A DNA stretch of 64,000 nucleotides from Strigamia acuminata. Taxonomy: Eukaryota > Arthropoda > Chilopoda > Geophilomorpha > Linotaeniidae. The position numbers and the translations under genes are program-made. This document shows positions 5,105 to 59,419 of the stretch, piece by piece. The notes beneath the pieces are model-generated. The model was not told the origin of the DNA, did not search any database, and saw only the letters and a program-made list of their open reading frames with translations. Position 1 is the stretch's first letter. Every line of letters begins with the position of its first letter. Location of the stretch: the NCBI GenBank assembly GCA_949358305.1, contig OX442319.1, forward strand, positions 5,766,001 through 5,830,000, given 5' to 3'.

Positions 5105-5270
5105 CAGAGACAGCGGACAAATGGAAGGACCGAGAGAGTGGACAAATGGAAGGACCGAGAGAGTGGACAAATGGAAGGACCGAGAGAGTGGACAAATGGA
5201 AGGACCGAGAGAGTGGACAAATGGAAAGACCGAGAGAGTGGACAAATGGAAGGACCGAGAGAGTGGACAA
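5105..5270. repeat. 25-bp minisatellite in truncated U3
   Basis: About six copies of CGAGAGAGTGGACAAATGGA plus AGGAC (25 bp). Shorter versions are in U1 (about 96-175), U2 (about 2620-2740) and U4 (about 19920-20040, more diverged). The array ends at the junction with unique sequence. Confidence 0.9.
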
Positions 5271-5271
5271 A

Positions 5272-6742
5272 TGACGAATTCAGAAATGTAACCCCGAGGA
5301 CACCTGCTCCTGACTACGATCCGCCTCCAATTGTAAAAATTGAGCAAAAGTTAAAGAAAAGTAAATTTTACAACCAAATTTCTGTTTTTTTTTAAATTTT
5401 TTTTAGCCTGGTTCCGAAGATGGATACAACCGAAATCGAATTCAGATGTTGCATCCAGTGCATGAACCATCAACAGGTATAATGGAATCATTACTAATTA
5501 ATTTATTTATAAAAAAGAAATTAAAAATACTATTTTGTAAATTTTGTGTTTTAGGTTGTTCGAGTCCAAGTTTCCTTCGGGGTTTACGCGTCGTTCATCC
5601 AATGGCCATTCCCACTGCTCCTCCAATGTCTGAAACATCATCTCTTGCGTACGAACCACAAGTTTGTCGCGAACCATCACCCGGTTTTCCACGACATTCT
5701 GGTGCTGCGTGCGGTCAACAAGTGTCTAGAAGATCCAGCCATGGGTAATGATATACTCCCTCTGTCCCAAATTATGGTATACATTTCTCTAAAAAATTCT
5801 TGATTATCGTTGGTTTTGTATATTTCTAAGATATTTTAACTAAATATCGTTCAAGATTAAGTGTGTTTGCTAACCAATGGATTGCATTATGGGTAATTAG
5901 TTTTATCATTTCGTTATTGCTGAGTTGCATCTTCTCAAAATGCACTCAAAATTAAGTGACACCTGTTGTGCTTAAAGTAAAGTGAAAATGAATTCGAAAA
6001 ATGGCTGTTTCCAAAGAAAAATGACAAAATAGAATAAATTAACTGATAATCAGCGAAATTGTATACAACAGCTCTAGCTGAAACAAAGCATTGTTAGGAA
6101 TAAGGCACCATTAATGAAATTTGCAGGCAAATTGAAATTACTCCACTAACTATTTCACGAATTCGGAGAGAAGTTAAAAAACAATACAATGAAGGACATA
6201 TTCCTGCCAAAAGATAAACATAACAATGTATTTTTGACATTGCCATGTTGTATGGAGTCAGGGATAATAGCAAAGAATGGCAACAATTACAAAATTCAGA
6301 AATTAAGAGCAATCATTACAAGTTATTGTTATGGAGTATTACCGTATTTATTGTTATTGTTTACTCTTTATTTTTTATTGTTATTATTTACTCCATATTA
6401 TTTATTGTTTACCGTACTTAATTTATTTATAATTTAACTTATTTATATTAATTTTGCATTTTTATAATGATAAAAATCAAATAAAACTTGAAATGTATAC
6501 CATAATTTGGGACAAAAATAATAGTAGAAATGTATACCATAATTTGGGACAGAGGGAGTATATTTTTTTTAAATTCCTCTTTTTTAAGTAGTTGAGCAAG
6601 TGCTTCTGCTGGCTGTTCGTGTGAAAGATGAATGCGAGAGTTAATTTTTTTGTTCACAGTGTGACTGGTGAAGAAACAACATTTGTTTTTCCGACGTCAT
6701 TTCAAGATGACTATTCGGAAGTTGTTGATGCTAAGAGGGATC
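5272..6742 (+). CDS. Partial multi-exon gene of unknown function (four exons visible)
   Basis: I do not recognise the product. Four segments join in one continuous frame with good splice signals: an exon ending at 5332 (its start is lost in the repeat), then 5407-5476, 5555-5744 and 6660-6742. Each intron has a GT donor and a pyrimidine-rich AG acceptor, and the last donor is GTAAGT at 6743. The roughly 120 residues are rich in Pro, Ser and Arg (TPRTPAPDYDPPP near the start, QQVSRRSSHG near exon 3's end) and end in a stretch with FVFPTSFQDDY. It looks like an unstructured or scaffold-type region. The 5' side is cut by the tandem array and the 3' side runs towards more array and the LTR element, so this may be a gene fragment or a gene with huge repeat-filled introns. 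The third intron carries a MITE. Confidence 0.5.
5756..6558. mobile_element. TA-flanked Tc1/mariner-like element, non-autonomous
   Basis: Terminal inverted repeats beginning CTCCCTCTGTCCCAAATTAT and extending about 35 bp (to GTATACATTTCT) bound 803 bp, flanked by TA on both sides (5754-5755 and 6559-6560). The interior has a decayed + strand reading resembling a transposase helix-turn-helix (ITPLTISRIRREVKKQYNEG around 6130-6195, stops nearby). It sits 11 bp inside an intron of the partial gene above. TIR type and TA target fit the Tc1/mariner superfamily; the transposase is dead. Confidence 0.85.
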
Positions 6743-7017
6743 GTAAGTAAGTGGAAAAAGCATTTCGATTTAAAAAAAAATAATAATTGCAATATAAATC
6801 TTGGAACGTGTGCGCTTATTGAACGAATACATAGCCAGCAGAAATTCGGACATTTTGAATTTTGCACATAAAGCTTTGCTGCACTGCACAAACGATTTTA
6901 AATGTCCACATTGTCTGGCGATGGCCAGCCATCTGTCGAGCACAGACCATTGATTATTGTTTGTTTTAAAACGTGTGATTGTCCTAGGATGAGGTCCAGG
7001 TTTTGAGAAACGTCACA
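6743..7017. other. Unique sequence, no gene seen
   Basis: Intron-like sequence downstream of the GTAAGT donor at 6743. No further exon recognised before array sequence resumes at about 7018. Confidence 0.5.
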
Positions 7018-7222
7018 TTCCACGAATCGCGTTGGGAGTATGGATGGACCGAGCGGGCAAACAACTGATGAACGGAACGAGTGAGCAGCGGACAGACGGA
7101 CCAAACTGACTGAAGGACGGATGAAGGAGCTAGAAGGTAGTGGATGGACGAAAGAGCAAGCAGACAGTGGGCGCAGCAAAAAGACAAATGCACATCAAAT
7201 GAAGAACACACACTTGGAACAT
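7018..7222. repeat. Array-unit fragment left of the LTR element
   Basis: Matches U1 from about 2068 (ATCGGGTTGGGAGTATGGAT, one mismatch) through the GAACACACACTTGGAACAT segment, with one internal deletion of about 30 bp. The unit continues at 19563 beyond the LTR element, so the element landed inside it. Confidence 0.9.
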
Positions 7223-8181
7223 TGTGGTGATCTCAAAATATTCACCAACTTAGAAGATTAAATTAATTATCTTCTAATTAATTTGACTGTGGCACACGCC
7301 AAGTCAGATCATGTGACCGAGGGGAGAAATCCTCTCTAGGCACATATCACCCCAGGTTGTCCGGGGTGAAAACGGTTATTAGCCGTTATGGTGCAATATG
7401 GTGTAATAACCACTAGTTGCACCCATTTGAGCTAAGTGCGCAGGTTTTCTGCGCAATATTGAAGCGTGCTGGGCTCGCGTCTTGGCTCAAATCGACACTC
7501 TGAAAAATACAACAACAACCTCAACATCACTGCTTTTGCTCCTGAAAGAAAAGTATTGATAGAGGACCGTTGTAACTCAGTTTCACCTGCTATCTTTGTG
7601 TATCAAACGCACAAAGCCAGCAATCCTGCTTGAATTAGCCGTCGCTAATTCCAGCAATCGAGAAGAGAAGATTCCCGACGATCGTGAACCATCGCCGTCG
7701 CTGTTGCGCGAACGACAGCCACCGCCATCGTACGAAAGCCGGACGCCTACAGCCGTCAACCACCGCCGCCGAGCCGTCGCACGAGCCGTAGAAGGAGCCC
7801 ACGAGAACCATCGTCTTCGACCATCGTTCGTGAGTTCGTAGAACGAAGACAATTTGCCTTCGCCTAACAACTTCAAGTTGTTTAAGCGCCATTTCTGACG
7901 CTTTGTAGCTTGCAACAGTCGTTGCAAGCCCTTCCTTTGTTTCATTGTTTCCCGCTCATTTTATTCTGTGATATTCATAATCATAATTAGTATATATTGT
8001 AATTTATCGAATAAAACATTTGTGTGATTTTTATTACCATAATAAACTGTCTTTTTATTCCTATTTCCGTAAACTTAACCCTAGACAAGTTTCGGCCGCG
8101 ATATAAGTCTTGTAAAGCATTCACCTGCGGTTTCTGCTTAATTTATTAGAAATTAAGTGGATAAAAACCCGGATCGCAGCA
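7223..8181 (+). repeat. 5' LTR (959 bp)
   Basis: Begins TGTGGTGATC, ends GGATCGCAGCA. Two AATAAA signals (8010-8015 and about 8040) give a plausible R-region polyadenylation site. A short hairpin-prone segment (AACGGTTATTAGCCGTTAT) lies near 7371. Its small ORFs are also present in the 3' LTR and show no family resemblance, so I do not call them genes. Confidence 0.97.
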
Positions 8182-8183
8182 CG

Positions 8184-8201
8184 TGGGGGCCCGTCCGGGA
8201 T
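8184..8201 (+). other. Primer binding site, tRNA-Pro type
   Basis: TGGGGGCCCGTCCGGGAT starts 2 bases after the LTR. From memory, the tRNA-Pro primer site used by murine gammaretroviruses is TGGGGGCTCGTCCGGGAT, so 17 of 18 positions agree. The primer call is good; whether the single difference matches a host tRNA-Pro variant is unknown. Confidence 0.85.
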
Positions 8202-8295
8202 AGTCATTGTATAAATTTTGATAGTTTAAAATTTACCCGCCATTTTTATCTTGCTTATCTTTCTTCTCTATCCTTTCTTTGTCTTCATTTGAAAA

Positions 8296-11200
8296 ATGGC
8301 GACTCCAGGCGAAAAGAGACCGAGAGGCAGACCAGCGAAGAGACGAGTGGCGATCGATCTACCAGCCGTGGATCAAGAAGTGACTGAGTCACAAGAACTG
8401 TTTGAAACTATGGATCAAACAGCTAACTGTAACTCGGCACAGTTAATCGTGAATGAATTCACGCAAGCGTTGGAGCGACAACAGCCATCCCCGCCCAGCG
8501 GCCAGTTGGACTTAAAAAATCCAACTGGAAGTGGCCGTTCCAAGTCGCAAAACGATGATTTGAATTTACGAATTCAATCATCAAGTGCGGAGCACTCGCT
8601 GAATTCATCACCGGTTCAAGGTGCAGCACAACAAGATTCTGAGAACTCCAATATGGAAGTTTCTCATTCTCCCGTGCGTGTTACCATGATGGACGCACTC
8701 CGTGAGCAAGCTAGGCTCGAGGGAGTAAAAGTCACTAGCGAAATGACTGTGGAACAAATCCACAAAGCTATGGTTCGCAAACAAAGCCAAAAAGACGTTG
8801 AAATCGTCAGAACAAGCTTGCAAGCAGAGTTCGAGCGAATGCGTGCAGAAATGCATCAGCAAAATGCCGAACTAAAACAACAACGTGCGAATGACCATGT
8901 TAAGTTGTTACAATTAGAACAGGAAAAAGCTTCCTGGCTAATTACTGACGAAGAGCAACAACAAAGGCTCGAGCAACTAAATCAAGCCCAAAAAGATTTA
9001 GAAATTGCTAATGAAAATTTGAGATTGGCCAACGCAAATTTGCGAGAAGCCAACACAAATTTAATGACTGCCGAACTAACCGCCCCAGTTCGAGCGAGGG
9101 AAGTAATTCCCTCCACTTCTCGAAATTACGAGAATCATGCTGCAGAGCAAGCAGCAAGAGCTAAGAGATTAGCACAACGAGAAAACGAAGTATTTCTCGC
9201 TCGACAGCAGTCCGTAATTGATGCTGGTCTAGCCGCCAAAAGTCAAAGTACTGCAGAGCAGTTATTACGTGCCGACTTAGCTGCGCAAGCTCGTGAAAAC
9301 GAAATTCTTCGCGCAGATCTATTGACGGTACAAGAGAACTTTGCAGTAGTAGTACAAAAAGTACAAGACGTTTGTGGCGAAGATAATTTTGCAAAGCCAG
9401 CCCCAGTTTTGCAAAAAGGTGCTTCCAAATCACCTGAGTTGATTGATTTAACATCAGCTAAACCAAAAGTCAGTCGACAATCAAGTTGGACTGACAGTGA
9501 TGACTCACGCAGTAGTCGTGGAAGCCGTAACAGTCATCACAGTCGCAAAAAGCGAAAGCGACAACCAGACCCGACCGAATATCATTCCCCAAAAGTTACG
9601 CAAGATTCGGATCGATTCTTTAGCAATAGCGACCGATTAATCGGAATGCTAGAGAAAAAGAATAAAGAACGTGAGAAACCACACGATCGTGGACGGTCAC
9701 ACGATAATCCGCGAGAAGGCTCACCAAAACGAGATTGTCATAACGACATCCGTGATGGGCCGAGATACCGTGGAAATCCGCCAGGTGGTGACCCACCAGG
9801 TGGAGATAGTTCAGATGGACATGGAGGTGGCCACTCACGTGACCACAATTCGAATGGCAATCGAAATGGAAGGGGACCACCAAATGGAGACCGTCGTCCG
9901 CCAGATGGCGACGATCCTCCGGACCCTGATCCGCCGCCAAATCCGAATCATGAATCTGCGTCAGATACAGATTCCTCACGTCCCAGTGTGAGAGGGCGAT
10001 CTCGTCACAGAACACGTAGTAGAACTCAAAGACCCGATTTCTACACGAAAGATGAGATTGACCAGTTGTTGAGGCAAAATGCTCAACAACAGCGAAAAAG
10101 CAGAAGGGATAAAATTATTTTGCAAAAAATAAGTGAATTTACTTCTGATAAATGGACTCATCAAACAACAGATGAAAAGTTCATTAGATGGGATCGAGTT
10201 ATCCCACATGCCTATAATGGAAATTGGCAAGCAGGGTCAAACCTCTTGCTGGAAATATTCGAACTAGGCAAAGTTCACAGTTTTAGCTGTGAAGGTGCAT
10301 TGGCCCATCTAGTACCAAGAATACTAGTTGGCGGTGTCAAGGAGTGGTTTCGCAGGAAAAACTTCACGAAGTGGGATGACTTCGTTAAACAATTTATGTT
10401 TAAATTTGGTGAATCGAGCGAAGACATCAAGACGCTCTGGAGATGTCTTAAGCAACGAAAAGGCGAAAGCTTACATTCGTACATGCTAAGAGCAGAGAAT
10501 CTGCTTGGCAGAATGCCACATGCTGTTACTGATGCAACAGCAGATGATCAGTTTAGAGCTGGCCTCACAGAATATAGTAAAAATATTCTGATGATGTCGG
10601 ACGCTCCCGACCCGGGGAAATTCTCCGAGTTAAACGAGTTCATGGAAGTCAATCAATTGCGCATTGACGAAAAGTACAAAGCTTATCTTACAGAAGCCGA
10701 AAGGTCAGCGTACTTAAAGCGAGAGAAAAGACTCGCTGAGCAAAACAATGAAACCTTTAATGGTTTGAAATTGTTGCAGCCACCTAGTTACGAAGACTTT
10801 CTAGACGAAGTGGATGAGAAGAGTTCGAAAAAAGAATCTTCCAAAAAGGACGTCAAAAATCCTCATTCAGTCCCTAAGTTACACGCAAATATAACTGGAG
10901 CTGAAACTCCGTCGTCTGAAGCTGAAGAAGCTGAAGAGGAGGAGGAAACAGGAGACGAGACGATGGCTTTATTGGCCAAAGCAGCGGCGTTGTTAGCAAA
11001 AAATAACCCCGTTGCGGGCAAATGGAAGCCAAGGATGAAACCAAAAAATGTTTCATTTGACGCATCAAAGGTGAATACCGAAAGGAATTCAAAGTCACCT
11101 GCGGTGTCGCCAGAGCGCCGGTCTGACGCTCGTTCTCGTTCTGCCTCGCCAGCAGCAACGAAAAAGAAATCGCCTGCCACTGATCCATGCAATTTATGCA

Positions 11201-11319
11201 AAAAATTAGGGCATTGGCAAAAAGACTGCCCTTCCTCTAAAAAGGACAAACCAGTGTCAACAGCTGAGTTTGAAAAAGCAGTCAAGATCATAACTGACAT
11301 GTTTCGAAAAAACTTGTAG
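8296..11319 (+). CDS. gag: LTR element Gag polyprotein (1007 aa)
   Basis: Structural protein of the retrotransposon particle. ATG at 8296 in an AAAATGGCG context. The N-terminal third is polar, with a Gln/Glu/Lys-rich coiled coil at about residues 150-270. A basic Ser/Arg region with HHSRKKRKRQ lies near 415-430, followed by a Gly/Pro/Asp-rich segment (about 490-560) and another Arg/Ser patch (about 570-585). A retrotransposon-gag capsid-like region follows (about 600-790; WDDFVKQFMFKFGE). An acidic stretch precedes one CCHC zinc knuckle (CNLCKKLGHWQKDC, about 965-978). It ends at TAG 11317, one codon after an in-frame AAAAAAC slippery heptamer. At about 1000 residues it is long for a gypsy Gag because of the N-terminal extension. 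Confidence 0.93.
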   Translation: MATPGEKRPRGRPAKRRVAIDLPAVDQEVTESQELFETMDQTANCNSAQLIVNEFTQALERQQPSPPSGQLDLKNPTGSGRSKSQNDDLNLRIQSSSAEHSLNSSPVQGAAQQDSENSNMEVSHSPVRVTMMDALREQARLEGVKVTSEMTVEQIHKAMVRKQSQKDVEIVRTSLQAEFERMRAEMHQQNAELKQQRANDHVKLLQLEQEKASWLITDEEQQQRLEQLNQAQKDLEIANENLRLANANLREANTNLMTAELTAPVRAREVIPSTSRNYENHAAEQAARAKRLAQRENEVFLARQQSVIDAGLAAKSQSTAEQLLRADLAAQARENEILRADLLTVQENFAVVVQKVQDVCGEDNFAKPAPVLQKGASKSPELIDLTSAKPKVSRQSSWTDSDDSRSSRGSRNSHHSRKKRKRQPDPTEYHSPKVTQDSDRFFSNSDRLIGMLEKKNKEREKPHDRGRSHDNPREGSPKRDCHNDIRDGPRYRGNPPGGDPPGGDSSDGHGGGHSRDHNSNGNRNGRGPPNGDRRPPDGDDPPDPDPPPNPNHESASDTDSSRPSVRGRSRHRTRSRTQRPDFYTKDEIDQLLRQNAQQQRKSRRDKIILQKISEFTSDKWTHQTTDEKFIRWDRVIPHAYNGNWQAGSNLLLEIFELGKVHSFSCEGALAHLVPRILVGGVKEWFRRKNFTKWDDFVKQFMFKFGESSEDIKTLWRCLKQRKGESLHSYMLRAENLLGRMPHAVTDATADDQFRAGLTEYSKNILMMSDAPDPGKFSELNEFMEVNQLRIDEKYKAYLTEAERSAYLKREKRLAEQNNETFNGLKLLQPPSYEDFLDEVDEKSSKKESSKKDVKNPHSVPKLHANITGAETPSSEAEEAEEEEETGDETMALLAKAAALLAKNNPVAGKWKPRMKPKNVSFDASKVNTERNSKSPAVSPERRSDARSRSASPAATKKKSPATDPCNLCKKLGHWQKDCPSSKKDKPVSTAEFEKAVKIITDMFRKNL

Positions 11320-11353
11320 ACGCAGATCCATCAGGTCTAGTGGACGCTGCGTC
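11307..11353 (+). promoter_or_regulatory. Programmed -1 ribosomal frameshift signal (gag/pol)
   Basis: The heptamer A AAA AAC (11307-11313) is in the correct phase relative to gag. A 5-nt spacer (TTGTA) follows. Then GACGCAG (11319-11325) pairs perfectly with CTGCGTC (11347-11353), and inside it TCCA (11327-11330) pairs with TGGA (11341-11344), leaving a 10-nt loop. The gag stop lies within the spacer/stem start. The -1 frame is open from 11313 straight into pol. Heptamer, spacer and stem all fit the classic retroviral arrangement. Confidence 0.88.
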
Positions 11354-14300
11354 ACCTCCGAAATCGGAATCAGAGAATGAAAATCTGAAGATAATGGAAG
11401 ATGTTGGAGAAGTTATTGATGAATTAATTCGTCAAACAGAACTAAAAGAAAAAGGATCTCTTGATGTAAAAAAGGAGATTGTCGGCGAAACCCCGACTGA
11501 AGAAGACACTTCCAATATTCAAGATAAAGTCGAAGTTAAAGACGATAGACCAAGCTCAGTTCCAGAGACACCTGGAATTGAGGAGTGCATTAAGTTATTT
11601 GCAGCTACAACTCTTGATACCAATGAGTTATTAGATGAATTGCCTTTGGAGCCTCCAATTACAGTTCCTCATAAATTGCGCAAGTTTGAGTGCAAAGTGG
11701 CTGGAATACCAAACAGCCAAGACCTTCCGACGTTAAAGTTAGAAACGTTAAAAGGTGTAATAACCGGAATGTTGGACTCAGGAGCAAATAAAAGCTTCCT
11801 AGCCACTTCAGTTATTAATCAACTAGGTCTAGAAAAATATCTACGACCTATCGGACCTGGTGTCAGAGTTACGACGGCAAGTGAAGAAGTCACTCCAGAT
11901 GGAACCATCCATCTTTCATTTCGATGGACACATGGCACGTTACGTCATCCGTTCATCGTAATACCAAATAAGTATCCAATGGTACTATTGGGTTGCGATT
12001 TTATGAATAAATTAAAAATCCAACCTAATCCACAGACGATGTCTTGGAATTTCACGCAACCTATGGATGCAGATTTACCCTACATTCCACAAGCGTTGCT
12101 GGATCGTTATTTGGAGAAAATAGAGGAACCCGATTCCTCATTTATGACCTTTGCAAAAGCTTACGCTGCAAGTGTAACTCAAGGCAAAATTGATGAAGAG
12201 AATTTCATCCAAAAGTTAGTCGAAGAAGCTAACTTAAATTTGGAGCAATCCAAATTATTAGAAAAGATGTTATCCAAACATAAAAGGATTATTTCTAAAG
12301 ATCCAGGTAAAACACACCTGGTTAAGCACAAAATTGAGCTTGACACGGAGAAACCCATCCGTGTCCCCTTTAAGAGCATAAACCCTCAAAAAAGGGAAAT
12401 AATCAGACAACTTTGTCAAGACATGATTGACAAAGGCGTAGTCGTCAAAGCTGAAGGCGATTACGGAATGCGGCCAGTCCTAGTCATGCGACCAGGAAAC
12501 GACCCACGCTTGTGCATTGATTTTCGCCCCATCAATACACATACTAAGTACAACCCACCTCAAATGCCAACAATTGAGGAAATTCTGCGAGAAATCGGAG
12601 AATTCGAATGGGTCAGTACTATAGATCTGACCAAGGGATATTGGCAGATAGAATTGCGACCTGAAGACAGAGAAAAAACTGCCTTCTGGAGCCCAATGGG
12701 AAGACTAATGTTTTTAGTCATGCCTTTCGGATTAGTAAACGCACCAACTACCTTCCAAGAATTAATGGAAAAAGTTTTGGGTGACGTTTACAGAAAATTT
12801 GCATGGGCATATTTGGATGACATAATTATTGTATCCAAATCGTTCGAAGAACACATTAAACATTTAGATATAGTGTTTAAAAAATTGGCAGAAGCTAATT
12901 TACATGCGCACCCTGGCAAGACGCATCTCTGTAGAAAGGAATTAATTTTTCTAGGCTACAAAGTAGGAGTAGAAGGACTTGCAGTAGACCCTAAAAAAGT
13001 CGCTGCAATTACGCAATTTCCTGCTCCTACCAATCTTAAGGAATTACAAAGATTTCTAGGCATGGTGAATTTCTTTCACCGCCTAATCAAGAATTTGGCC
13101 ACAGTGGCAGAACCACTAAGGCCACTCTTGAAGAAAGATGCGGAGTTCGATTGGGAACTGCATCATCAAGCAGCATTCGACGCAATAAAAGACCTGCTTA
13201 CGAATGCTGAAACAATGAAGATGCCTGACTTGTACATGCCATTTATTGTTCATACTGACGCCAGTAAACAAGGGTTGGGTGCAGCCCTTACACAAAAGAA
13301 AAATGTGGATGGCCAAGAAGTCGAAATGCCATGCGTGTATGCAAGCAGAAGCTTGCAACCCGCTGAAAAGAATTATACTGTGACAGAATTAGAATGTCTC
13401 GCAGTAGTATGGGGATTACGCAAATTTCGCCCATACTTAGAGTACACTACATTCACTGTACAAACGGATCACCAAGCACTTAGGTGGTTGATGTCGTTAT
13501 CTGACCCGTCGGGCAGATTAGCTCGTTGGCAAATGGAGCTGATGGCGTATTCGTTCGAAATACAATACGTCAAAGGTCCGCTAAATGTAATAGCAGACGC
13601 ATTGTCACGTGCACCTGTCAGCGCACCTGACGAACCAGAAGACGATGGCGATAATGATGATTTATTATCATATTGTCCATCTCCTTGCCGAAGTTGGCAA
13701 ATGGGAAAATTGAACGAATTACCCAAGTCAATAATAGTTAATGACGACGATCAAGCATTAATTAATTTTTGTATTAACATGCATGATCCGTCAGGAACCC
13801 CTGACGTCGAATTAAGAGCTATGATGGCTAAAAAATTCGAGCTGCCAACAACAAATGTTTTAATTAAAGCATTTGCAGCTAAAATTGCGAAGCAATTAGA
13901 ATGTGATCCTCCAACGAGAGATGACATTATTGCAGCGCAAAAAGCAGACGAATTTTGCCAACATATTCGCAATTACTTGCTAAACAAGCAATATCCAAGT
14001 TACATAGTAACTCGTCTTCAAAGAAGAAACTTTGAAAGACACGCGAGTACTTATCTCATTGAAGAAGATATGCTACTCCATTATCATCCTACCTCCACCG
14101 ATGAATTGGGAGAGGATGGTAGGGCACTTAAAGTTGTTGTGCCAAGAAAATTGATTTATAAAATCATTTGGTTGATGCACGGACATCCACTGTCCGGCCA
14201 CCCAGGCATTGCGAGGACAATGTACCAAACTCGAAGAGTTTATACCTGGAAAGGTATGAAACGTGATATTACACGTTTTATTCAACATTGTCAAGGATGT

Positions 14301-15566
14301 CAGGCATGTAAGCCGAGATCAAAGACCGAAATTGAAGGCGCTCAAATTGGACCATTTGGACCATTTGACTGCCTCAGTGTGGATTTGTCTGGTCCCAAAC
14401 CAAGAACCAGAAAAAACAATACCCACATTTGCGTCATCGTAGATGTCGCTACACATTGGCCCGAATTATTTCCAATGTGTAATCCAACGGCAATAAAAGT
14501 TGCCAACACAATTTATCACTTATCAATGACTTTCGGATTTCCGAGACAAATCATAAGTGATAATGGACCACAATTTCGATCACAGGTCTATAAAGAATTT
14601 TGCAAAAAATTCGACATGTCGCGAACACCGACATCGATTTATCATCCACAAAGCAATCCTGTGGAGAGAACCAATCGAGATATTAAATATTTAGTTTCGA
14701 TTTATTTAGATATTCATGACCAATGGGATGAGTATCTACGCGAATTTGCATTCAGTTTGAGAACAACTGTAACAAGAGGCAGAGATTATTCTCCTGCTTT
14801 CTTAAATTTTTTCCGAGAATTAAGAATTCCTTGGGATCCAAGAATTCCGGAAGGAATTTTAGTCATTGATCCAAAAAATCCGCATTTATATGTTCAGAAA
14901 TTAGAAACAATAATTGCAGAGACGTATCAGCATATGATGTCTCACGTCTTAGATTTGAGACGCCGTGTCGAAGCTGAAAAATCAGATAAGAAATTCGACA
15001 ACTTCAGACAAAATGATTTAGTCTGGCGAGAGTCTCATATTCTCTCAAATGCCGCTAAAGGAATAGCAGCAGGCATTTCACCGAAAAGGAATGGGCCTTA
15101 TGTAATTATCAAAAGGTTACAAGGAGGCGCCTTTCAACTTCGACGGCTGAGTGATAATAAAATTTATCCAGCTGTTCACGGCACTGAATTAATGCCGTAC
15201 TTTCCCGTTTTCAACCAAGAAATTTGGCTGGAAGGGGAGGAAGTGGGTCAAAAAACAAAAAATATTGTTAATACCTTGGATGATGCTAAATTATCCAAAA
15301 TTCCTGTCGAAAACACGGAATCGAGTAAAAAATCGAAACTCAAAAATAACGAAGTCGATGAAATAAACCAGCGACTTGAAAATGTTTCTCTTGATGAAAA
15401 TCTAGAAAAGGAAATGTTTTTAGAAAAAGAGAAAATTTCAAACAATGAAGTATATAACTCATCTGACATTGGAGACGATGCTGATGACAATCTAAACAAG
15501 TTGGATTGTACTTCGCGAAAGTCAAAGTACAACTTGAGATCTCGCGTTCCGCGAGCCAAGACATAG
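11313..15566 (+). CDS. pol: LTR element Pol polyprotein (protease-RT-RNase H-integrase)
   Basis: Made as a Gag-Pol fusion by -1 frameshifting. The first in-frame ATG-like codon (GTG 11340) is not a credible start. Residues are counted from 11340. The aspartic protease motif is MLDSGAN (about 143-149). Reverse transcriptase follows at about 340-520 with the catalytic YLDD box (about 491). RNase H has HTDASKQG (about 640) and ends near the PLNVIADALSR tail (about 752). The integrase zinc motif is H-H-C-C (HGHPLSGHPG... CQGCQAC, about 947-988). The DDE core shows VDLSG (about 1014), SDNGPQ (about 1074) and PVERTN (about 1109). The C-terminal 130 residues are acidic/basic and low complexity. About 1417 codons, no internal stop; all catalytic residues I can identify are present. 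Confidence 0.95.
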   Translation, partial: LVDADPSGLVDAASPPKSESENENLKIMEDVGEVIDELIRQTELKEKGSLDVKKEIVGETPTEEDTSNIQDKVEVKDDRPSSVPETPGIEECIKLFAATTLDTNELLDELPLEPPITVPHKLRKFECKVAGIPNSQDLPTLKLETLKGVITGMLDSGANKSFLATSVINQLGLEKYLRPIGPGVRVTTASEEVTPDGTIHLSFRWTHGTLRHPFIVIPNKYPMVLLGCDFMNKLKIQPNPQTMSWNFTQPMDADLPYIPQALLDRYLEKIEEPDSSFMTFAKAYAASVTQGKIDEENFIQKLVEEANLNLEQSKLLEKMLSKHKRIISKDPGKTHLVKHKIELDTEKPIRVPFKSINPQKREIIRQLCQDMIDKGVVVKAEGDYGMRPVLVMRPGNDPRLCIDFRPINTHTKYNPPQMPTIEEILREIGEFEWVSTIDLTKGYWQIELRPEDREKTAFWSPMGRLMFLVMPFGLVNAPTTFQELMEKVLGDVYRKFAWAYLDDIIIVSKSFEEHIKHLDIVFKKLAEANLHAHPGKTHLCRKELIFLGYKVGVEGLAVDPKKVAAITQFPAPTNLKELQRFLGMVNFFHRLIKNLATVAEPLRPLLKKDAEFDWELHHQAAFDAIKDLLTNAETMKMPDLYMPFIVHTDASKQGLGAALTQKKNVDGQEVEMPCVYASRSLQPAEKNYTVTELECLAVVWGLRKFRPYLEYTTFTVQTDHQALRWLMSLSDPSGRLARWQMELMAYSFEIQYVKGPLNVIADALSRAPVSAPDEPEDDGDNDDLLSYCPSPCRSWQMGKLNELPKSIIVNDDDQALINFCINMHDPSGTPDVELRAMMAKKFELPTTNVLIKAFAAKIAKQLECDPPTRDDIIAAQKADEFCQHIRNYLLNKQYPSYIVTRLQRRNFERHASTYLIEEDMLLHYHPTSTDELGEDGRALKVVVPRKLIYKIIWLMHGHPLSGHPGIARTMYQTRRVYTWKGMKRDITRFIQHCQGCQACKPRSKTEIEGAQIGPFGPFDCLSVDLSGPKPRTRKNNTHICVIVDVATHWPELFPMCNPTAIKVANTIYHLSMTFGFPRQIISDNGPQFRSQVYKEFCKKFDMSRTPTSIYHPQSNPVERTNRDIKYLVSIYLDIHDQWDEYLREFAFSLRTTVTRGRDYSPAFLNFFRELRIPWDPRIPEGILVIDPKNPHLYVQKLETIIAETYQHMMSHVLDLRRRVEAEKSDKKFDNFRQNDLVWRESHILSNAAKGIAAGISPKRNGPYVIIKRLQGGAFQLRRLSDNKIYPAVHGTELMPYFPVFNQEIWLEGEEVGQKTKNIVNTLDDAKLSKIPVENTESSKKSKLKNNEVDEINQRLENVSLDENLEKEMFLEKEKISNNEVYNSSDIGDDADDNLNKLDCTSRKSKYNLRSRVPRAKT

Positions 15567-15755
15567 TGTTGTCTTTCACCTTTTGGGTTTACCCAAAAGA
15601 TCCGAGAAAGCAATCTCGTGACGTCATTCGTAGTACCCACTCGAATGACAACGTTAATCATACGTTATAATTAGTGACGTCACAAAGCGTCTCTAATCCA
15701 AGTTCGTGTTTGCAATCAACGAACTTAGTCACTTTTTCAAAAGTTTCGAGAGTGT

Positions 15756-18551
15756 ATGCATCGCATCGCCTACGTTACGACCCGAATAGTTCGACAACCT
15801 GATCGTAAGTAATTTTTCTGTATGAAAAATTTGATAAAACATAAGATTTATGTATTATTTCTCTTTCAAGACGAAAGAATTTCCGAAATTACCGGAAAAC
15901 GAAAGAGAATGGACGAGGAAGCGATCCAACTCCAGGCGGACGGAGAAATGCCCATGGAAGGGGCAAATGAAGACGTTCAATTGACGCTTCAACAACGGGT
16001 AAATTATTAGAATAAATTTTTACCAAGTGTTTAAGTCAGAAAAATTGAGTAATTTCACTTTTCCTGACTTCAAACACAAGCCGCTAAAAAATAAAAATGG
16101 CGGCTATAAAAGTCACGTGCTTCAAGCATGTGCGAAGGGAGTTGCCATGACAACCAACATCCCTTAGTGACTCACAGCCACAAGCGCTAAGCTTAAAAAA
16201 TATTTCAAATAAGAAATTATTTGTTTATTTTTAAATAAACTAATTTATTTATTTTTCTTCGAATACAGATCGAGAGGGATCGAGAAACGCCATTCGCGCT
16301 TCCCGATCACGTGCCGACTCAGCACCCGCTGATTTTTCGAGCGGCATTGCCCGAAAAAATCAGAAGACTGAAGACGGCAAACAATACCTGGTGGAAGTTG
16401 CGCCACGACTTCAGCAGATCAGCGCTGCAAGGATTTGGTGCAAAAGGAAGATTCATCGAGCGCCTTCACGTGGACGGTGTCGACGAAATCGAGTGGACGC
16501 TCGACGAGAGCCCCCCAGGACCGCTTGCAGCAGAGTTGCTGCACAACCAGTGGCCAGTGACGCCACGAGAGCGTCACGAGCGCAGAAGAGCGCTAAAGAG
16601 TACCGGAATTAATTACGGTGCTCTAACCCAATTGAGGAAGAACCTCAAGACGACACAACGCGAAGTCGTTAAACGGTATCGCAAATCCGTTCGTGACGGG
16701 AACCCACAACTTCCCGTCACACAAACCGAGCTCCACCAGTTGGCGCTCGCCGGGTGTTTTAACGATTTTCCGGGATTTTTCCCGTCCAAAGCACTCAGAG
16801 CTGCCGCGGTGCAGCTTCGCGTCGACGAAAATCGACAACTGGCTCGAGAACACGAGGCAGAGGAGCAAGCGCGTTGCGCTCTCCCTTTTTATCAAGAAGA
16901 TGAAATTCCGGCCCCAGCGGCCATCAATCCTCCGCCGCAAGACGAGGATTTGAGGGTGGGGCAACTCCCTCCGCCGGTTCCAGTCCGACCGATGTTCCGC
17001 GAATCAAGCCGCGATCGAGAGGAACGTCAGAAGCGATCACGCCCATATTCGACTGACGCGCAGCCATCACGCCCGCAGTCGCGACGAGGACGGACACCAG
17101 AGTCGTTTGGCTCGTCGTCTTCGCTGAGTTTTGAATCGGACTCCACAATTAAGTCCGCCCGAAGTAGCCGAACCGCCTCCACGTTCAAAGTGGACAACTC
17201 GGCTACTCCATACGCCATGAGACGTGTTGTCGGTGATATTTCTCCCGACTGTAGCGTGCCAGTACCTGGACATGCTAGCCGCTTGCCCGAACAAGGATAT
17301 GTTTCCCGCTTGCCGGCTGGAGTTAGCAACCTGCAACTCCGGCCATTTTTTAGTGAGTCATTCGGCCCACAATGGACCTGCTACGAGCAGCAACCCATTA
17401 GAGCACAGCAGGAAGTGCTCCAGAAGCTGGACGCATACCAAAGCGCCCAGATCGCCGAGTCGCAGAAGGACTGGCAGAGACTAGCTGAAAGGCTAGAAGT
17501 CTCCGACATCAATACCATTGATGATCCCCGTCTGATGGATTTTCAGCGTCAGCTAATTCCGGGGATGACTAGGGTGTTGTACCCTGGTGTTCTTCCTTCG
17601 CCAGGACAGGCGTTAGCGGCCATAACGTACCTTTGGACCGCGCCGATGGGCCTGTCGGAGAAGAAAGTCGAGCTGTGGTACCACCTCAGGCTCGACCCGC
17701 CTACGATCTTAGCCGAGCTAATAAAGCAAGTCGTAGCAAACGGTGAGACCGAAGAAGAGGCCGCCGTTCGGTTGCGAACCGAGTGGTCCTTTGCGAAGGC
17801 CACGGCGCGAATGACCGGAAGACCACCGCTTCCAGTTACAAGCGCCACAGCAGCTGCGTCACTGGCTGTTTTCCAGTCGGCCCAAGAGGGCGCTGGATGT
17901 TCATTTTGGCCAGAGAACGCCGGAAGTTCTCAAACTCCAGCCGGAGTTCAACGGGTAGTCGAAACCCGTCAGCTCCCCGGTGTGGGTCGAGCACCGGGAC
18001 GAGGCGTCACACCCTCGTCAACCTCCGCACCTGCGTTGGTTTTCTTGGGCCCGCAGTGCCAGTTTGACGATGCCACGACGGAAGACTCACGTCCGCCGCC
18101 GCCGCCGCCAGCCAAGCCGGAGACGAAGGTCAAGCCGCTGAAAAAAGAGTCGGCTTTCAAGACCCTAATGCGCCTGTATCCGCACTTCTATTTGACGCCG
18201 GATACGCGAACACTGCTTAGCAACAACCACAAGTTGTCGAGGCAGGTGTTTATGTGGCTCGAGGACCACATCCGGGTGTTAAGCCCACCATCGGTGCTCC
18301 ATGATCGACTCCTGAGAGCACGATTAGCGCCAGAGGATCCAATCGAGTTCGCGGCGCTAGGATTCTTCAACCGAGCGAACTCGGCAAGAATCATCCAGGT
18401 TTGGCTTCATGTCAACCCTGGAATGGTCTCCGGACCAAACGCAGGTCGCGACCTGTGTACGGTTAACGAGCGGTCCAACCCGAGGGACGACACCACGGAT
18501 ATGATGCGCCCGTTGACGCCTGAGCGAACTCAGACCATGGACGAATCATAA
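15756..18551 (+). CDS. LTR element ORF3, spliced, unknown function (819 aa, three exons)
   Basis: The long open block 16311-18551 has no credible ATG at its start. Extending it upstream gives three exons in one frame: 15756-15804 (ATG 15756, donor GTAAGT at 15805), 15871-15998 (acceptor CTCTTTCAAG, donor GTAAAT at 15999) and 16269-18551 (acceptor GAATACAG). Lengths 49+128+2283 make 820 codons, and the 270-nt second intron contains in-frame stops. The product has a basic GKRKR patch near residue 27, a helical, charged N-terminal domain, a Pro/Ser/Arg-rich linker (about 270-370), a second helical region (about 430-580), a PPPPPP tract and a final helical module. I see no signal peptide, transmembrane segment or furin-type envelope layout. 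Base composition is clearly more GC-rich than gag/pol. Not a recognisable env; may be a captured host gene or a regulatory/accessory protein. Confidence 0.75.
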
Positions 18552-18590
18552 ATTGGTTCGTTCATTTTCTCTCCATGTAAGATTCGTCTT

Positions 18591-18601
18591 AAATGGGGGG
18601 A
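18591..18601 (+). other. Polypurine tract
   Basis: AAATGGGGGGA lies 2 bases before the 3' LTR, the usual place for plus-strand DNA priming. Confidence 0.8.
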
Positions 18602-18603
18602 TG

Positions 18604-19562
18604 TGTGGTGATCTCAAAATATTCACCAACTTAGAAGATTAAATTAATTATCTTCTAATTAATTTGACTGTGGCACACGCCAAGTCAGATCATGTGACCG
18701 AGGGGAGAAATCCTCTCTAGGCACATATCACCCCAGGTTGTCCGGGGTGAAAACGGTTATTAGCCGTTATGGTGCAATATGGTGTAATAACCACTAGTTG
18801 CACCCATTTGAGCTAAGTGCGCAGGTTTTCTGCGCAATATTGAAGCGTGCTGGGCTCGCGTCTTGGCTCAAATCGACACTCTGAAAAATACAACAACAAC
18901 CTCAACATCACTGCTTTTGCTCCTGAAAGAAAAGTATTGATAGAGGACCGTTGTAACTCAGTTTCACCTGCTATCTTTGTGTATCAAACGCACAAAGCCA
19001 GCAATCCTGCTTGAATTAGCCGTCGCTAATTCCAGCAATCGAGAAGAGAAGATTCCCGACGATCGTGAACCATCGCCGTCGCTGTTGCGCGAACGACAGC
19101 CACCGCCATCGTACGAAAGCCGGACGCCTACAGCCGTCAACCACCGCCGCCGAGCCGTCGCACGAGCCGTAGAAGGAGCCCACGAGAACCATCGTCTTCG
19201 ACCATCGTTCGTGAGTTCGTAGAACGAAGACAATTTGCCTTCGCCTAACAACTTCAAGTTGTTTAAGCGCCATTTCTGACGCTTTGTAGCTTGCAACAGT
19301 CGTTGCAAGCCCTTCCTTTGTTTCATTGTTTCCCGCTCATTTTATTCTGTGATATTCATAATCATAATTAGTATATATTGTAATTTATCGAATAAAACAT
19401 TTGTGTGATTTTTATTACCATAATAAACTGTCTTTTTATTCCTATTTCCGTAAACTTAACCCTAGACAAGTTTCGGCCGCGATATAAGTCTTGTAAAGCA
19501 TTCACCTGCGGTTTCTGCTTAATTTATTAGAAATTAAGTGGATAAAAACCCGGATCGCAGCA
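18604..19562 (+). repeat. 3' LTR (959 bp)
   Basis: Same length as the 5' LTR and, reading line by line, with no difference that I can find. Followed by the ACAT target duplicate at 19563. Confidence 0.97.
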
Positions 19563-21378
19563 ACATCAAATAGGAGTGAGTGATTTTGTTTGCATTAGAT
19601 TGTTGTGTTGTTTTTTAATAGCTAGACAGCCCACTGCATCAAATATGGAGTACACTGACGGATATTGCTGGGAAGCCAATTCCGAAGCCTGCTTCATCTT
19701 TTGGATCACCTAGCAGGTTGTGAAGATCGGCCATCGGAACGGTAGGATTCTTGGGAAAAATTCATGGCAGATCTTTCTTCTTCTGGGAGGTGTCCCCCCT
19801 CCTTTGGGGAGGCGTTTCTCCTCCCCACCTCGGATGTGCCATGAATCGGGTTGGGGGGATTTGTTTCAGCGCTGGCAACCTGGAAGCCACCTAGACACCA
19901 ATGAATATGCTAGAAGAAGAAGACAGCGGACGGATGGAAGGACCGAGAGAGCGGACGGATGGAAAGACCGAGAGAGTGGACAGATGGAAGGACCGACAGA
20001 GTCGACAGATGGATGGACCGAGAGAGCGGGCGAACGGATGGATGCACTGGGCAAGCAGTGTACAGACGGACGGACAGATTAACCGCATCAATCAAACACC
20101 ACAGCAGTTTTATGTTTTTTTTCAGATTTTGTGGGTAGGGGCTACTGTTTATTTAGAACATTAAAGAAAATTATTTTATTTTTTCTAGATTCTATAATTG
20201 GGACAACTGATCAAGATTGGATGCGAGGAATAAAGAAGCCATTTTCAGAAAAGATCTATATGTCAGGACAACAATTGCGCGTATATTGAAGTGGAAAGCT
20301 GGTGTAATTACAAAGTTCAAATTTGAGATCTGGTTCAACATGCCGTAGTTTATTTTATTTTTCGGTCCTTAGTCTCTTTTAGGTTCTTCCTTTGGTTTAT
20401 TTATTGGTTCTGCCTTTCGTTTATTTTTTGGTTTATTTTTTGGTTCTTAATTTGGTTTATTTTTTGGTTCTTAATTTGGTTTATTTTTTGGTTCTTAATT
20501 TGGTTTATTTTTTGGTTCTTAATTTGGTTTATTTTTTGGTTCTTAATTTGGTTTATTTTTTGGTTCTTAATTTGGTTTATTTGTTTGTACATACTTAGAT
20601 TGGTTTATTTTTTGGTCTTTAGTTTAGCTTATTTTTTGGTTCTTGGTTTGGCTTATTATAATTTTTGGTTTTTGGTTTGGATGAATTTCAAATGGTCTAA
20701 ATTGCTTCACAGTTGTGACCATTTATGGTCATTCGGTTTTTGTGGTTTTCTTTTAATTTGGGTGTCATTATTTATGGTCATTTGGTTTTCGTTTTGTTTT
20801 TTACGCATGTTTGGTTTTGTATTTTTTGCTTGATAGTGTGTGGAATGGTTTTTGTTTACTGGTGTGTGTAATTTTATTTTTATTTGCAGTATGCTACCGG
20901 TATGTAAAAGTCAATTTTAATTATTAGTGAAATTTAAATGGTTCTTTTTAATTACATCAGCTTTACCCGGTGATACTATTAGAAAATACAGGTTTTAATG
21001 CTGTATTCTCTAATATTTATAATAGTACATAGTTTATTGCACCTCTCCGCTTTAATTTTTTATTTAGTTTTTAATTGTAGATTTTAAAATGCATGAAGAA
21101 AAATTATTGTTGATTAAATTGCACCTAAAATGATTTTGCTCCATTTGCTTGTGAAGCCAACACTGAATGGAGACTTGTACACGGAAGATTCAGTAGTATT
21201 ATTTGAATTTTTTTTTTTGAATTTTAATGTATTTATTTTATATTTAGGTTTTTTAATATGTAAATTGTATAGAGATTTTATTGAAGATTTAAGAACTACT
21301 AGTACAACTTCTTCAAAGGTGACTTCGAGAATTATAAATTAATTCACCATCAGGCAATTCTTTGGAGTTTACGAATAT
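19563..21378. repeat. Array unit U4, truncated
   Basis: Continues the unit interrupted by the LTR element and carries the landmark at 19836. It is more diverged from U1/U2 than they are from each other and keeps extra sequence in one exon-like segment (AGATCTATATGTCAGGACAA at about 20251). It stops at about 21378 where unrelated sequence (TGTTTCGAGCTGCC) begins. Confidence 0.9.
20415..20582. repeat. 24-bp minisatellite in U4
   Basis: Same repeat as at 534-812 and 3112-3268, about six to seven copies. Confidence 0.9.
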
Positions 21379-21887
21379 TGTTTCGAGCTGCCCTCTCAAA
21401 CTGAAGAAAATCTCGGGAAGGTATGGCAGCTTCGCCACATTAGAAGATGATAAATCACTTGAAACCTTGGTGACTTGCTTCTCACTGCTGTCTGGAAATA
21501 TGTGAGTTTCTGTAGATTCAAGACAAAAAACTCCTCTGGGACTGAATTTAGCAGCGATCTTTAATCACCAAAGTCATGATTACAAGTGAGTCAAAAACAG
21601 AGTAAAAACTACAGACACAAATCTTCAACAAAGGATCAGCATGTGATCAACAATTGTCTCTCATAGCAACGTAAAAAACAAAAATGTTCTAAAGGAAAAT
21701 TCCAGAGCATTAGTTATACAAATTCAATTGTAACAATGGTAACTAAGCAGTAACTAAAAAAAAAACAGAAAAAGAAGGCTTAAAACTTAAACCTCTAAAA
21801 GCTTAAATAAACAGGAATCCGGATACAATTAACTTTACATAAGAAACGTTCTTCGTTTTAACAGTAGAACGGAAATCTTACATTTTT

Positions 21888-26655: not shown

Positions 26656-27993
26656 GACATTTTTTGTTATCCAAAACTTGTTAAAATCCACAATTCCATC
26701 AACTTCCAATCCGTAGCCGAAAACCACATAAAACATCTCTCATTCGCTGTGCGTTAAATCCTCGCCATTCATCTCCTCGGACTGATTTGGAAGTCAGTTG
26801 CACTTTACACTCCTAGCACTGATTTTGGACCCACGACAAGACGCAACATAAGCATTCACATTGCCACTTCGACGTGCTGCTTGTGCGAAACAAGTTTTCC
26901 ACTGTCCCGGCAAGCGAATATCCATCTGGACTTCACAAATGTCAACTTTCCATTCTCCTTCAAAGCCTGATAGAAGAATGGATATTTTAAATAAATTTTA
27001 AATAGAAATAAATTAATTTTAAATTTCGATTCAGCGTTGGGCGCGGTGTACGGTACATTGCATCGATCTAGCCCGATTATAGATTTTTTAGCCCGATAAT
27101 ACTCTTTATAGGACGAATATATCAATTTTTGGTCTAAAATGTCTATTATTGGGCCAAGAAGTTGACTTTTAAGCTAAAAAACATATATTTTTAGCATAAA
27201 AACGTTTATTTTCGTGCTAAAATCGTTCATTTTTGTCTAAAATCCTTCATTTTCGCGACACCGGGACAAAGCATCCCACACCAGGTCGTCTGGTCACCCT
27301 GACAATTTCTCGAAGTTATCAATTTTTCAATTGAATAGAACACATAATTAACAAAAATATTAGTTTCATTTGTTTATAAATATATCACAGCTCTTTTTAA
27401 TTAATTACAAAAGTATTTACAATTTCCAACAAACACTTGCTAATAAAAAAAAGTTTAATATTTAAAATTGTGATCGGCTGTCCTGCAGCGCACTCCTCCC
27501 CATATGGCTCTGTTGCGGCTCCCCATTCCGGAAGTTTCCGGGGCATGGACAATGGTAGGCTTGCCATTCGAGCAAAAGTGTCCGAGCTGATTCGAGTCAA
27601 TTTTAAATGAATGTTCTGTGCAAAAAATATTTGTGATGACACAATATTTATTGACATCATCGACAATTTTTTCTCCATCACAGCATTAAAAAAAAATACA
27701 ACTTTCTTTTTAAAATGTGGCCTAATTAATTCATACCGTATATAAAGAATTTGTTCAGACTGTTGGACATGCTGTTCTTCGGCCGCCAATACGTCACCAG
27801 GAGGCGCTTGGACATATCGCGGACGCAACCTACACGTTGAAGATACGTCCATGTAGATAGCCAATCAGGGCTAAGTGTTCTTCTCTGGAAGAAAATCACA
27901 TGTAATCGTTTACATCTTATGACTGTTGTATTGTTGGATCGAACTATTTCCAATACACACTTGTATCATTCTCGTCTGACCCGTACAGTCGAC

Positions 27994-29145
27994 ATGCCAC
28001 GAAGAAAATCAGCTTCGAGTTTGGAACGTTTGTGTTTGAATGTGGTGGCCACTCAAATTCAGGAGCAAAAGATCCAAGATCAACTGGCAAGTCAACCGCC
28101 CGTGCTTTTGAATAACATATACGAAAGTTTGTGCAAGCAATTATTGATTACCAATGGAATTTTGCCTTCAAAAACATTCATTCATCCCGGCGCCATGTCA
28201 CTACACCATTTGCATCTGTTTGATATCTCCATGACTTCTCTACTCGGTGAAATTGGCCAAACTTGTAAAAACCTTGTGCGTTTAAGCTTAAAAGAACATT
28301 ACTTCGCTCCAATAGTTGTACAGCCAGATGAATCCGTAGTCAAACTGCTGCAAAATTTACCGAAACTTCAATATTTAACCCTTCGGTGCACGGATGAAAT
28401 TGCTGCTGCAATCGGACAGAATTGTACACTGATGAAACAGCTCAAGATTTCGAAGAGCTCACACCTTACTGACATTGGGCTGCGATCATTATGCTGTTGC
28501 ATCAAGCTCAATTCTTTAAATATTTTGTCAACTAGTAGTAGTACCACGGCCGAGGGGTGTTTGTTTGTGCTCAACCAACTGCCACTTTTAGAAATGTTTC
28601 AACATAATCACTGGAACGAAATATTTACTGAGTTAGCCAAACTGTCGCCTGGAAACACTTATTCCACCAAAAGTGTTAAAGTAAGGAGTATCGAACATAT
28701 CCCTCTCCTGACGACACATTTTCCAAATTTAAGAAACTTGACGTTGATAGATGTAAGTCCTTTGAATTTTAATATTGTAATGCGGCCACAGCGATTGAAA
28801 TGTCTCTGTCTGTCGAATTTTACACAGGTGAATATAACACTTATTGACCGCACTTGGCCAATGTTAGAGACGTTACTATTAAATGGGTGTACATTTTTCA
28901 ATGAAGGTAATACCGTTAATACTCCGTTGCAAAACCTTCGTAATCTGACTTTAGACTGTAGAAATACAGTTGTTACTGAACAACAAGTGAAAACATTATT
29001 GGTACGATGTAAAAGTATAAAACGTTTGTGTTGTATTGATTGTGCTTGGCTTTCTGACGATTTCATTTTAGAACTTGCAGAGTTGAATGCGCTACAAACT
29101 TTAATATTTCTTCAATGCCACTTATTACTTCTGCTTCCATCATAA
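27994..29145 (+). CDS. LRR protein A with BC-box-like N-terminus (C-terminal frameshift)
   Basis: Start chosen at MPRRKSASS (ATG 27994), also conserved in paralogue B. The N-terminus reads SLERLCLNVV, fitting the Elongin BC-box pattern (S/T)LxxxCxxxhydrophobic, followed by QPPVLLNNIYESL, loosely like a Cullin-2 box. The rest is leucine-rich repeats (LMKQLKISKSSHLTDIGLRSL and similar, about residues 95-375). This resembles ZYG-11/ZER1-type substrate receptors of Cullin-2 ubiquitin ligases; the substrate is unknown. Versus paralogue B there is a 1-bp deletion near 29117 (CACTTATTAC vs AACTTGGTTAC in B), which replaces the last ~50 residues with a short LLLLLPS tail. The downstream homologous sequence runs to about 29281, where AATAAA overlaps the old stop. 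Either a recent pseudogene or a shortened protein. Confidence 0.7.
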   Translation: MPRRKSASSLERLCLNVVATQIQEQKIQDQLASQPPVLLNNIYESLCKQLLITNGILPSKTFIHPGAMSLHHLHLFDISMTSLLGEIGQTCKNLVRLSLKEHYFAPIVVQPDESVVKLLQNLPKLQYLTLRCTDEIAAAIGQNCTLMKQLKISKSSHLTDIGLRSLCCCIKLNSLNILSTSSSTTAEGCLFVLNQLPLLEMFQHNHWNEIFTELAKLSPGNTYSTKSVKVRSIEHIPLLTTHFPNLRNLTLIDVSPLNFNIVMRPQRLKCLCLSNFTQVNITLIDRTWPMLETLLLNGCTFFNEGNTVNTPLQNLRNLTLDCRNTVVTEQQVKTLLVRCKSIKRLCCIDCAWLSDDFILELAELNALQTLIFLQCHLLLLLPS

Positions 29146-29418
29146 AATTATTGGATCTACACAATTCGTTGAATAAGTTAACAATCTTGTATTGTAATAA
29201 TATTGACTGTTTAGATTATGATGTAATTAAGTGTCATGTTAAATGTAAAAACTGGAATTTGCAGGTTGCAGACAAATTTTAAATAAAGGCTTTTATTTAA
29301 AAAGTTAAATAAGCTAAATCCTATGCACTTTGATTTAGGTTTTCTAATTTTTTAAGTAATTACGGAGTATTTTTTATTTTATACAAAGGATTGATATTAT
29401 TAATTTTCCACTTTCTTT

Positions 29419-59345: not shown

Positions 59346-59419
59346 GCAGTGTAGAGCGCTGAAAAGTTGAAAAAAATAACAAATAAAACGGTCAGGTCAA
59401 GTTAAATAAAAGCCTTTAT

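Follow-up and report, generated by a model that had tools for sequence, protein, structure and literature searches.

The third open reading frame (ORF3) of a Ty3/gypsy LTR retrotransposon lying in the window (the whole stretch of 64,000 nucleotides of Strigamia acuminata DNA analysed here) is, judging from its sequence, almost certainly a spliced, non-envelope accessory gene under selection. We place a probability of roughly 0.45 on the full reading, in which this spliced gene encodes an exporter of the element's unspliced genomic RNA comparable to CERV of the Caenorhabditis elegans element Cer1 or to retroviral Rev. Third ORFs of LTR elements are commonly taken to be envelope genes; the frame described here is spliced, as evident from footprints in the genome, strongly selected, and not envelope-like. 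Should ORF3 work as CERV does, elements that govern their own ratio of spliced to unspliced RNA through an encoded protein would be more widespread than Cer1 and the retroviruses.

The host element

The element at positions 7223–19562 (forward strand, as are all its features below) is a young, recently active Ty3/gypsy LTR retrotransposon, with an LTR pair, a 4-bp target duplication, gag, pol, and ORF3. The 5′ LTR (7223–8181) and 3′ LTR (18604–19562) are each 959 bp long and 100% identical, with TG..CA ends that, together with the short target duplication, agree with membership of Ty3/gypsy. The ends of the element and the duplication (ACAT) are exact, since the flanks match two unoccupied paralogous target sites in the same window (2284–2287 and 4742–4745) with a 4-base ACAT overlap. 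These unoccupied sites come from long repeat units that surround the element (1–7222 and 19563–21382, offset by ~2.46 kb and up to 99.8% alike), one of which the element interrupts. A putative primer binding site, TGGGGGCCCGTCCGGGAT, was read in the sequence at 8184–8201, and we take it to be tRNA-Pro-like; a partial complement of this site was located 329 times in the genome, with no tRNA gene among the six of these loci that were fetched.

The gag frame (8296–11319, 1007 aa) ends in a probable zinc knuckle, with a Pfam zf-CCHC match of E = 0.00087 and 19.7 bits, just under the curated cut-off of 20.8. The pol frame (11298–15566) encodes protease, reverse transcriptase, RNase H, and integrase in the order PR-RT-RH-IN by Pfam, the protease match falling under the curated cut-off, and the nearest solved structure in a PDB search by sequence is that of Ty3. 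Inspection by eye shows the catalytic positions common to ten relatives to be present, with the protease Asp and Gly invariant in 11 sequences, and a pattern scan of viral contigs with pol found no relative. A −1 frameshift site within 11298–11400 probably joins gag to pol, because the pol frame opens inside gag at 11298 and the overlap holds a heptamer followed by a hairpin (z = −2.22; 5 of 200 shuffles equally stable). The heptamer, A AAA AAC in the gag frame at 11307–11313, is presumably a −1 frameshift motif.

Gene model of ORF3

The three-exon model of 819 residues put forward in an earlier note on this DNA is correct in its coordinates and phases, with exon 1 (15756–15804, 49 nt), exon 2 (15871–15998, 128 nt), and exon 3 (16269–18551, 2283 nt, 760 aa) summing to 2460 nt, or 819 codons and a stop. 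Intron 1 (15805–15870) is 66 nt long and intron 2 (15999–16268) 270 nt. Exon 3 holds no in-frame stop, compared with 17–31 in each of the five other frames, and a composition-only estimate gives a chance of 7e-13 that 760 codons would stay open. Read unspliced, the frame is closed by one in-frame stop in intron 1 and nine in intron 2, and residues 1–241 require the upstream exons, as the first methionine in exon 3 is residue 242. The splice sites, described in the note as good GT/AG sites, prove to be so, with the donors ranking first and third of 48 GTs and the acceptors first and third of 63 AGs between 15400 and 16400, and with no splice chain at equal thresholds in 200 shuffles, the site weights being approximate and the thresholds having been chosen after the fact.

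Apart from the window, nine copies were read, and all of them keep the proposed ATG at 15756 and the exon 1 peptide M-x-x-x-x-Y-x-T-T (Tyr6, Thr8, and Thr9); in-frame stops lie upstream of this ATG at 15672, 15675, and 15726. A compositional contrast with gag and pol was likewise found as claimed, with GC and GC3 of 0.569 and 0.591 in exon 3, 0.452 and 0.379 in gag, and 0.398 and 0.344 in pol. Donor candidates for a subgenomic leader of the env type are present near the start of gag, none standing out, and the nematode spliced leader SL1 was not found when ≤2 mismatches were allowed. A check for nesting around ORF3 (15500–18640) revealed neither direct repeats nor inverted ones on its flanks at a length of at least 18 bases, and an origin of ORF3 by duplication of gag was rejected, with similarity to gag at chance level (best E = 6.3).

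Genomic copies lacking the introns

The element is copied through RNA, and reverse transcription of its spliced RNA therefore leaves an intron-free copy. In the genome (237.5 Mb in 157 contigs), a 32-base probe across the exon 2–exon 3 junction, allowing up to three mismatches, found two matches, both exact, and a probe across the exon 1–exon 2 junction found one (1 mismatch), with none for either reversed control. These lie in two copies with losses that match the predicted boundaries to the base, of both introns in L022 and of intron 2 in L021. Both introns are also missing from three copies (L057–L059) that belong to a related subfamily, and the joins in the intron-free copies fall exactly at 15804/15871 and 15998/16269, so that intron 1 is missing to the base in L022 and L057–L059, and intron 2 in all five copies. 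L057–L059 were chosen for their long open frames (822–824 aa), and the five intron-lacking copies give no frequency.

In L021 and L022 alike, comparison of the 5′ LTR with the 3′ LTR over 959 bases shows agreement, and the 4-bp duplications (AACG and ACTT) are intact. The distances from 5′ LTR to exon 3 are 8776 and 8735 bases in L021 and L022, against 8776 and 8710 expected after subtraction of the introns, a comparison by length. As these copies are otherwise full-length by their LTRs, duplications, and distances, intron-less RNA must have reached the reverse transcriptase, directly or by template switching. Furthermore, the exons of L057–L059 differ from those of L022, which argues for at least two, and probably three, independent intron losses at the same boundaries. 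A return of the element's spliced RNA to the genome is thus possible, and the resulting copies allow intron-bearing and intron-free forms of the element to be compared in their natural setting. These copies keep pol and are therefore uninformative as to how a translatable ORF3 message arises.

Unspliced donor patterns occur at 73 places in the genome for intron 2 and 69 for intron 1. Among the copies L001–L020, intron 2 is kept in 20 of 20 (≤2 mismatches), and the segment exon 1–intron 1–exon 2 in 19 of 20 (≤1 mismatch), L012 being interrupted. Far more copies retain the introns than lack them, though every insertion passed through RNA, which implies that unspliced RNA is favoured as the genome. 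Packaging thus usually takes in unspliced RNA even though splicing plainly occurs, which puts the element in the retroviral conflict between splicing and export of the whole RNA.

Several copies combine segments of differing identity. The copies L007, L012, L014, and L019 are 99.5–99.97% identical to the window in the ORF3 region and 88–91% in the 3′ LTR, and L022, whose ORF3 region is likewise near that of the window, is 91.7% identical in its LTRs. This contrast between ORF3 and LTR identity suggests that these five copies are mosaics, as template switching between subfamilies predicts. Additionally, L050 (G000:C1:26201291-26204503) is a deletion derivative in which gag (~10703) is joined to ORF3 (17159), with a listed open frame of 1271 codons.

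Conservation and selection

In related elements the ORF is neither unconserved nor full of stops, the outcome that the earlier note had named as fatal to the gene. Among near-identical copies (99–100%), 57 of the 59 scored have no stop in ORF3 and two have one, the 59 being the best of 1477 candidates. A second genome search, which scored the best 150 of 752, gave ten matches at ≤93% identity, of which four (L060–L063) were taken. These copies are ~80% identical to the window and have exon 3 open for 756–783 codons, with dN/dS against the window of 0.14–0.153 at dS of 0.68–0.82; across all ten pairs dN/dS is 0.078–0.153. Judged by these substitution ratios, the ORF3 product is under strong purifying selection.

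All four divergent copies retain both introns, with intron 1 of L063 having lost its GT donor through a 2-base deletion; the C-terminus of ORF3 also differs in L063, which is perhaps a copy on its way to decay. Nucleotide identity is poor in exon 1 (41–51%), and the best conserved blocks of exon 3 are residues 321–480 and 641–680. Seven Ser/Thr-Pro sites and four cysteines (163, 371, 544, and 730) are invariant in the window and L060–L063.

Features of the ORF3 protein

The product is large (819 aa), rich in proline and arginine, and modular, with more ordered parts at residues ~28–179, 413–471, and 638–723 lying between disordered Pro/Ser-rich linkers on a crude scale. Exon 3 contains no hydrophobic stretch (best 19-residue mean 1.01), in keeping with the absence of a membrane helix claimed earlier, and inspection of the exon 1 and exon 2 peptides by eye reveals no signal peptide. 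Hydropathy, inspection by eye, and the lack of a Pfam match thus show none of the signal peptide, membrane anchor, or fusion protein of retroviral and errantiviral envelopes, and with the intron-free copies and the open divergent copies they bear out the description of a spliced, non-envelope third ORF. The further claim that no cleavage site is present does not hold, with one RxKR-type motif, RQKR, at exon-3 residue 253 in a disordered-looking stretch; as there is no membrane anchor, this motif is weak evidence of anything. ORF3 contains one N-glycosylation motif.

The basic patch noted near the start of the protein is encoded by exon 2, where it reads KRKR in the window, and is kept in all nine copies read, in the forms GKRKR, RKRKR, AKRRR, RKRRK, and RKRRR, which makes the suggestion of an accessory protein with a basic patch plausible. 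No RNA-binding domain was recognised in ORF3 by Pfam or NCBIfam, and no DNA-binding domain was found either.

A search with exon 3 of 5.8 billion protein sequences, in which the 8000 best candidates by word matches were scored, found no relative, the words being taken from the first 500 residues of exon 3 and then from residues 385–745 with E up to 10. The whole of exon 3 has no match in Pfam, NCBIfam, or PHROGs, and Pfam searches with pieces of it gave TssR_C (0.12) and DUF3320 (0.21), both at chance level. Searches of the PDB by sequence and by a five-member profile gave nothing credible (three piece matches, E = 0.5–1.6), and pattern scans with ORF3 of viral and prokaryotic contigs revealed no relative.

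Conserved noncoding segments

The gap of 189 bases between pol and exon 1 holds twin TGACGTCA octamers at 15619 and 15675 (15619–15682), the sole two in the window and a putative ORF3 promoter, with the octamer presumably of the CRE type. The pair is spaced by 56–57 bp in all ten sequences, window included, and AATCAACGAACTTAG just upstream of the ATG is kept in the same ten; among L001–L020, two octamers are present in 19 of 20 copies (L012 again being interrupted). Genome-wide, the pair pattern occurs at 228 places, compared with one for the control; as some of the places listed fall in unrelated repeats, the pairs are not specific to the element.

Intron 2 contains a conserved core at 16075–16160, limits set after inspection, with AAAATGGCGGC, TATAAAA, CACGTG, and an X-box-like palindrome, which we take to be YY1, TATA, E-box, and RFX X-box sites. 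The core is 90–92% identical to the four divergent copies, compared with 61–67% at exon 3 fourfold sites (Fisher p 3e-9 to 3e-6), and the central 26 bases have 134 exact matches in the genome, with none for the control. Folding three of the five sequences as RNA gave z values of −2.24 to −3.57 for the core, with two alternative hairpin folds in competition; covariation is unusable here, because the core is too invariant. The core is dispensable in cis for some rounds of copying, since intron-free copies also multiplied, L057–L059 being 95.5–96.9% alike. From its sequence, the core may be either part of a promoter or enhancer, or an RNA export or retention element.

Comparison with known systems

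Cer1 is a gypsy-type LTR retrotransposon. In retroviruses, Rev, Rex, and constitutive transport elements handle the export of intron-containing genomic RNA, with Rev being the HIV-1 counterpart of CERV in this job. The CERV paper, which also summarises Rev, Rex, and constitutive transport elements, describes CERV as a nuclear protein made from a spliced mRNA and required to export unspliced RNA, with 517 aa encoded by five exons, of which exons 1–3 are read in frame with gag, and with its function established through mutants (PMC10309623). It further describes a candidate nuclear localisation signal KRKK, structured domains with flexible linkers, an essential Cys loop, no obvious homology outside nematodes, and a tRNA-Pro primer site in the Cer1 family (PMC10309623).

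CERV is the nearest working analogue of ORF3. Both are extra, non-envelope proteins from a spliced message of the element, as judged here from genomic footprints; both have a basic candidate nuclear localisation signal (KRKK in CERV, KRKR-type in the ORF3 sequence); both alternate ordered parts with flexible linkers; and both are orphans, with no homology outside nematodes for CERV and none found for ORF3. Additionally, both elements have a tRNA-Pro-like primer site, a putative one here, and unspliced genomic RNA that has to coexist with a spliced message. In contrast to CERV, ORF3 is 819 aa long, with three exons that all lie downstream of pol and none common to gag in this model, and has no Cys loop, its four invariant cysteines (163, 371, 544, and 730) being far apart and not a C4 arrangement. 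Cer1 also differs in having no stop between gag and pol, compared with the apparent frameshift here. The likeness to CERV is one of description, and mutants define the function in CERV only. Rev, Rex, and constitutive transport elements address the same export problem, with the conserved, structured intron element here a candidate target, although no sequence similarity of these proteins to ORF3 was found.

Spliced non-envelope third ORFs are already known from bdelloid rotifers, as is a spliced extra protein from Cer1. In the bdelloid elements Vesta, Juno, and TelKA, as reported, a third ORF lies downstream of pol, is often non-envelope, and typically forms a separate unit with spliced messages, encoding GDSL esterases, DEDDy exonucleases, coiled-coil, transmembrane, or paramyxovirus-type fusion proteins, with a dUTPase in three lineages (PMC5408684). 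ORF3 resembles these in being spliced, non-envelope, and 3′ of pol, and differs from the Vesta and Juno types so described in having no GDSL or DEDDy match, with no dUTPase in pol by Pfam and NCBIfam. In plant LTR elements, a sense ORF between pol and the 3′ LTR is described in PMC7264820, with splicing reported for barley Bagy2. ORF3 shares this position and the splicing of Bagy2; the plant sense ORFs are there called env-like, some with transmembrane domains, whereas ORF3 has none. The literature searched, mostly without subscription papers, holds no description of an ORF3 family, or of intron-free retrocopies as evidence of splicing for such an ORF.

Possible functions of ORF3

Of the roles considered, a CERV/Rev-like one ranks highest by our inference. 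A role in transcription or against silencing comes next, and structural and host functions are minor readings. In the CERV/Rev-like mechanism, the ORF3 message would arise by default removal of the two introns, with transcription driven by the LTR or by an internal promoter that the twin TGACGTCA octamers would mark. The protein would enter the nucleus through its KRKR patch and act there on RNA of the element that still contains introns, letting enough unspliced genomic RNA escape splicing and nuclear retention to be translated into Gag-Pol and packaged. The intron-2 core would be part of the internal promoter, or else the RNA element by which intron-containing RNA is recognised. The majority of intron-bearing copies implies that unspliced RNA is favoured as the genome, the very problem that export regulators solve; against this mechanism stand the distance between the invariant cysteines, the lack of an exon common to gag, the multiplication of intron-free copies, and the lack of a recognised RNA-binding domain. 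A more specific form, in which ORF3 and its own structured intron-2 target make up a separately evolved, invertebrate-type export switch like Rev and RRE, with ORF3 a new protein family, we regard as unlikely.

That ORF3 is a spliced accessory protein with a different nuclear function, such as an activator of the element's own transcription, a suppressor of small-RNA silencing, or a factor in chromatin or integration, is a real possibility that we hold tentatively, jointly with the intron-2 core being the DNA target of ORF3 or a promoter or enhancer. The basic patch kept in nine of nine copies, the conserved twin TGACGTCA octamers, an intron core rich in presumed promoter-type motifs, and the lack of a recognised RNA-binding domain would all fit such a protein. 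However, the same features suit an export regulator, ORF3 has no DNA-binding domain match, and unrelated repeats elsewhere in the genome carry CRE pairs with the same spacing.

It is improbable that ORF3 is a structural protein or one associated with the particle, whether as a second Gag-like protein or as a replacement for the envelope. The position of ORF3 between pol and the 3′ LTR is that of env, and its size, modular Pro/Arg-rich make-up, and basic RQKR could suit a particle protein, yet it has no hydrophobic helix and no more than chance similarity to gag (best E = 6.3), and neither Pfam nor the PDB gave a credible match. Equally improbable is a captured host gene retaining its host function and introns, for which the GC richness, the introns, the promoter-like motifs, and a codon usage uncorrelated with gag and pol (r = −0.03 and −0.09) and nearer that of the sole GC-rich leucine-rich-repeat ORF of the window (r = 0.39) might speak, but for which one host ORF is no codon-usage baseline. 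The suggestion of capture made in the earlier note found no support, with no relative in the protein search, Pfam, NCBIfam, PHROGs, the PDB, or the viral and prokaryotic scans, and a host-genome search that reached element copies only and so leaves room for a lineage-specific host ancestor. Any capture was not recent, as the age of ORF3 with its introns equals that of the most divergent copies (dS 0.68–0.82).

Outside the element, the window also contains an inverted pair of 2.1-kb repeats (27197–29300 and 59402–61492) that are 88.6% alike, each with a long ORF with no Pfam match above cut-off. The leucine-rich-repeat ORF lies on the reverse strand at 37888–39105 and is of an animal type, its GC of 0.60 and GC3 of 0.80 standing out from AT-rich surroundings.
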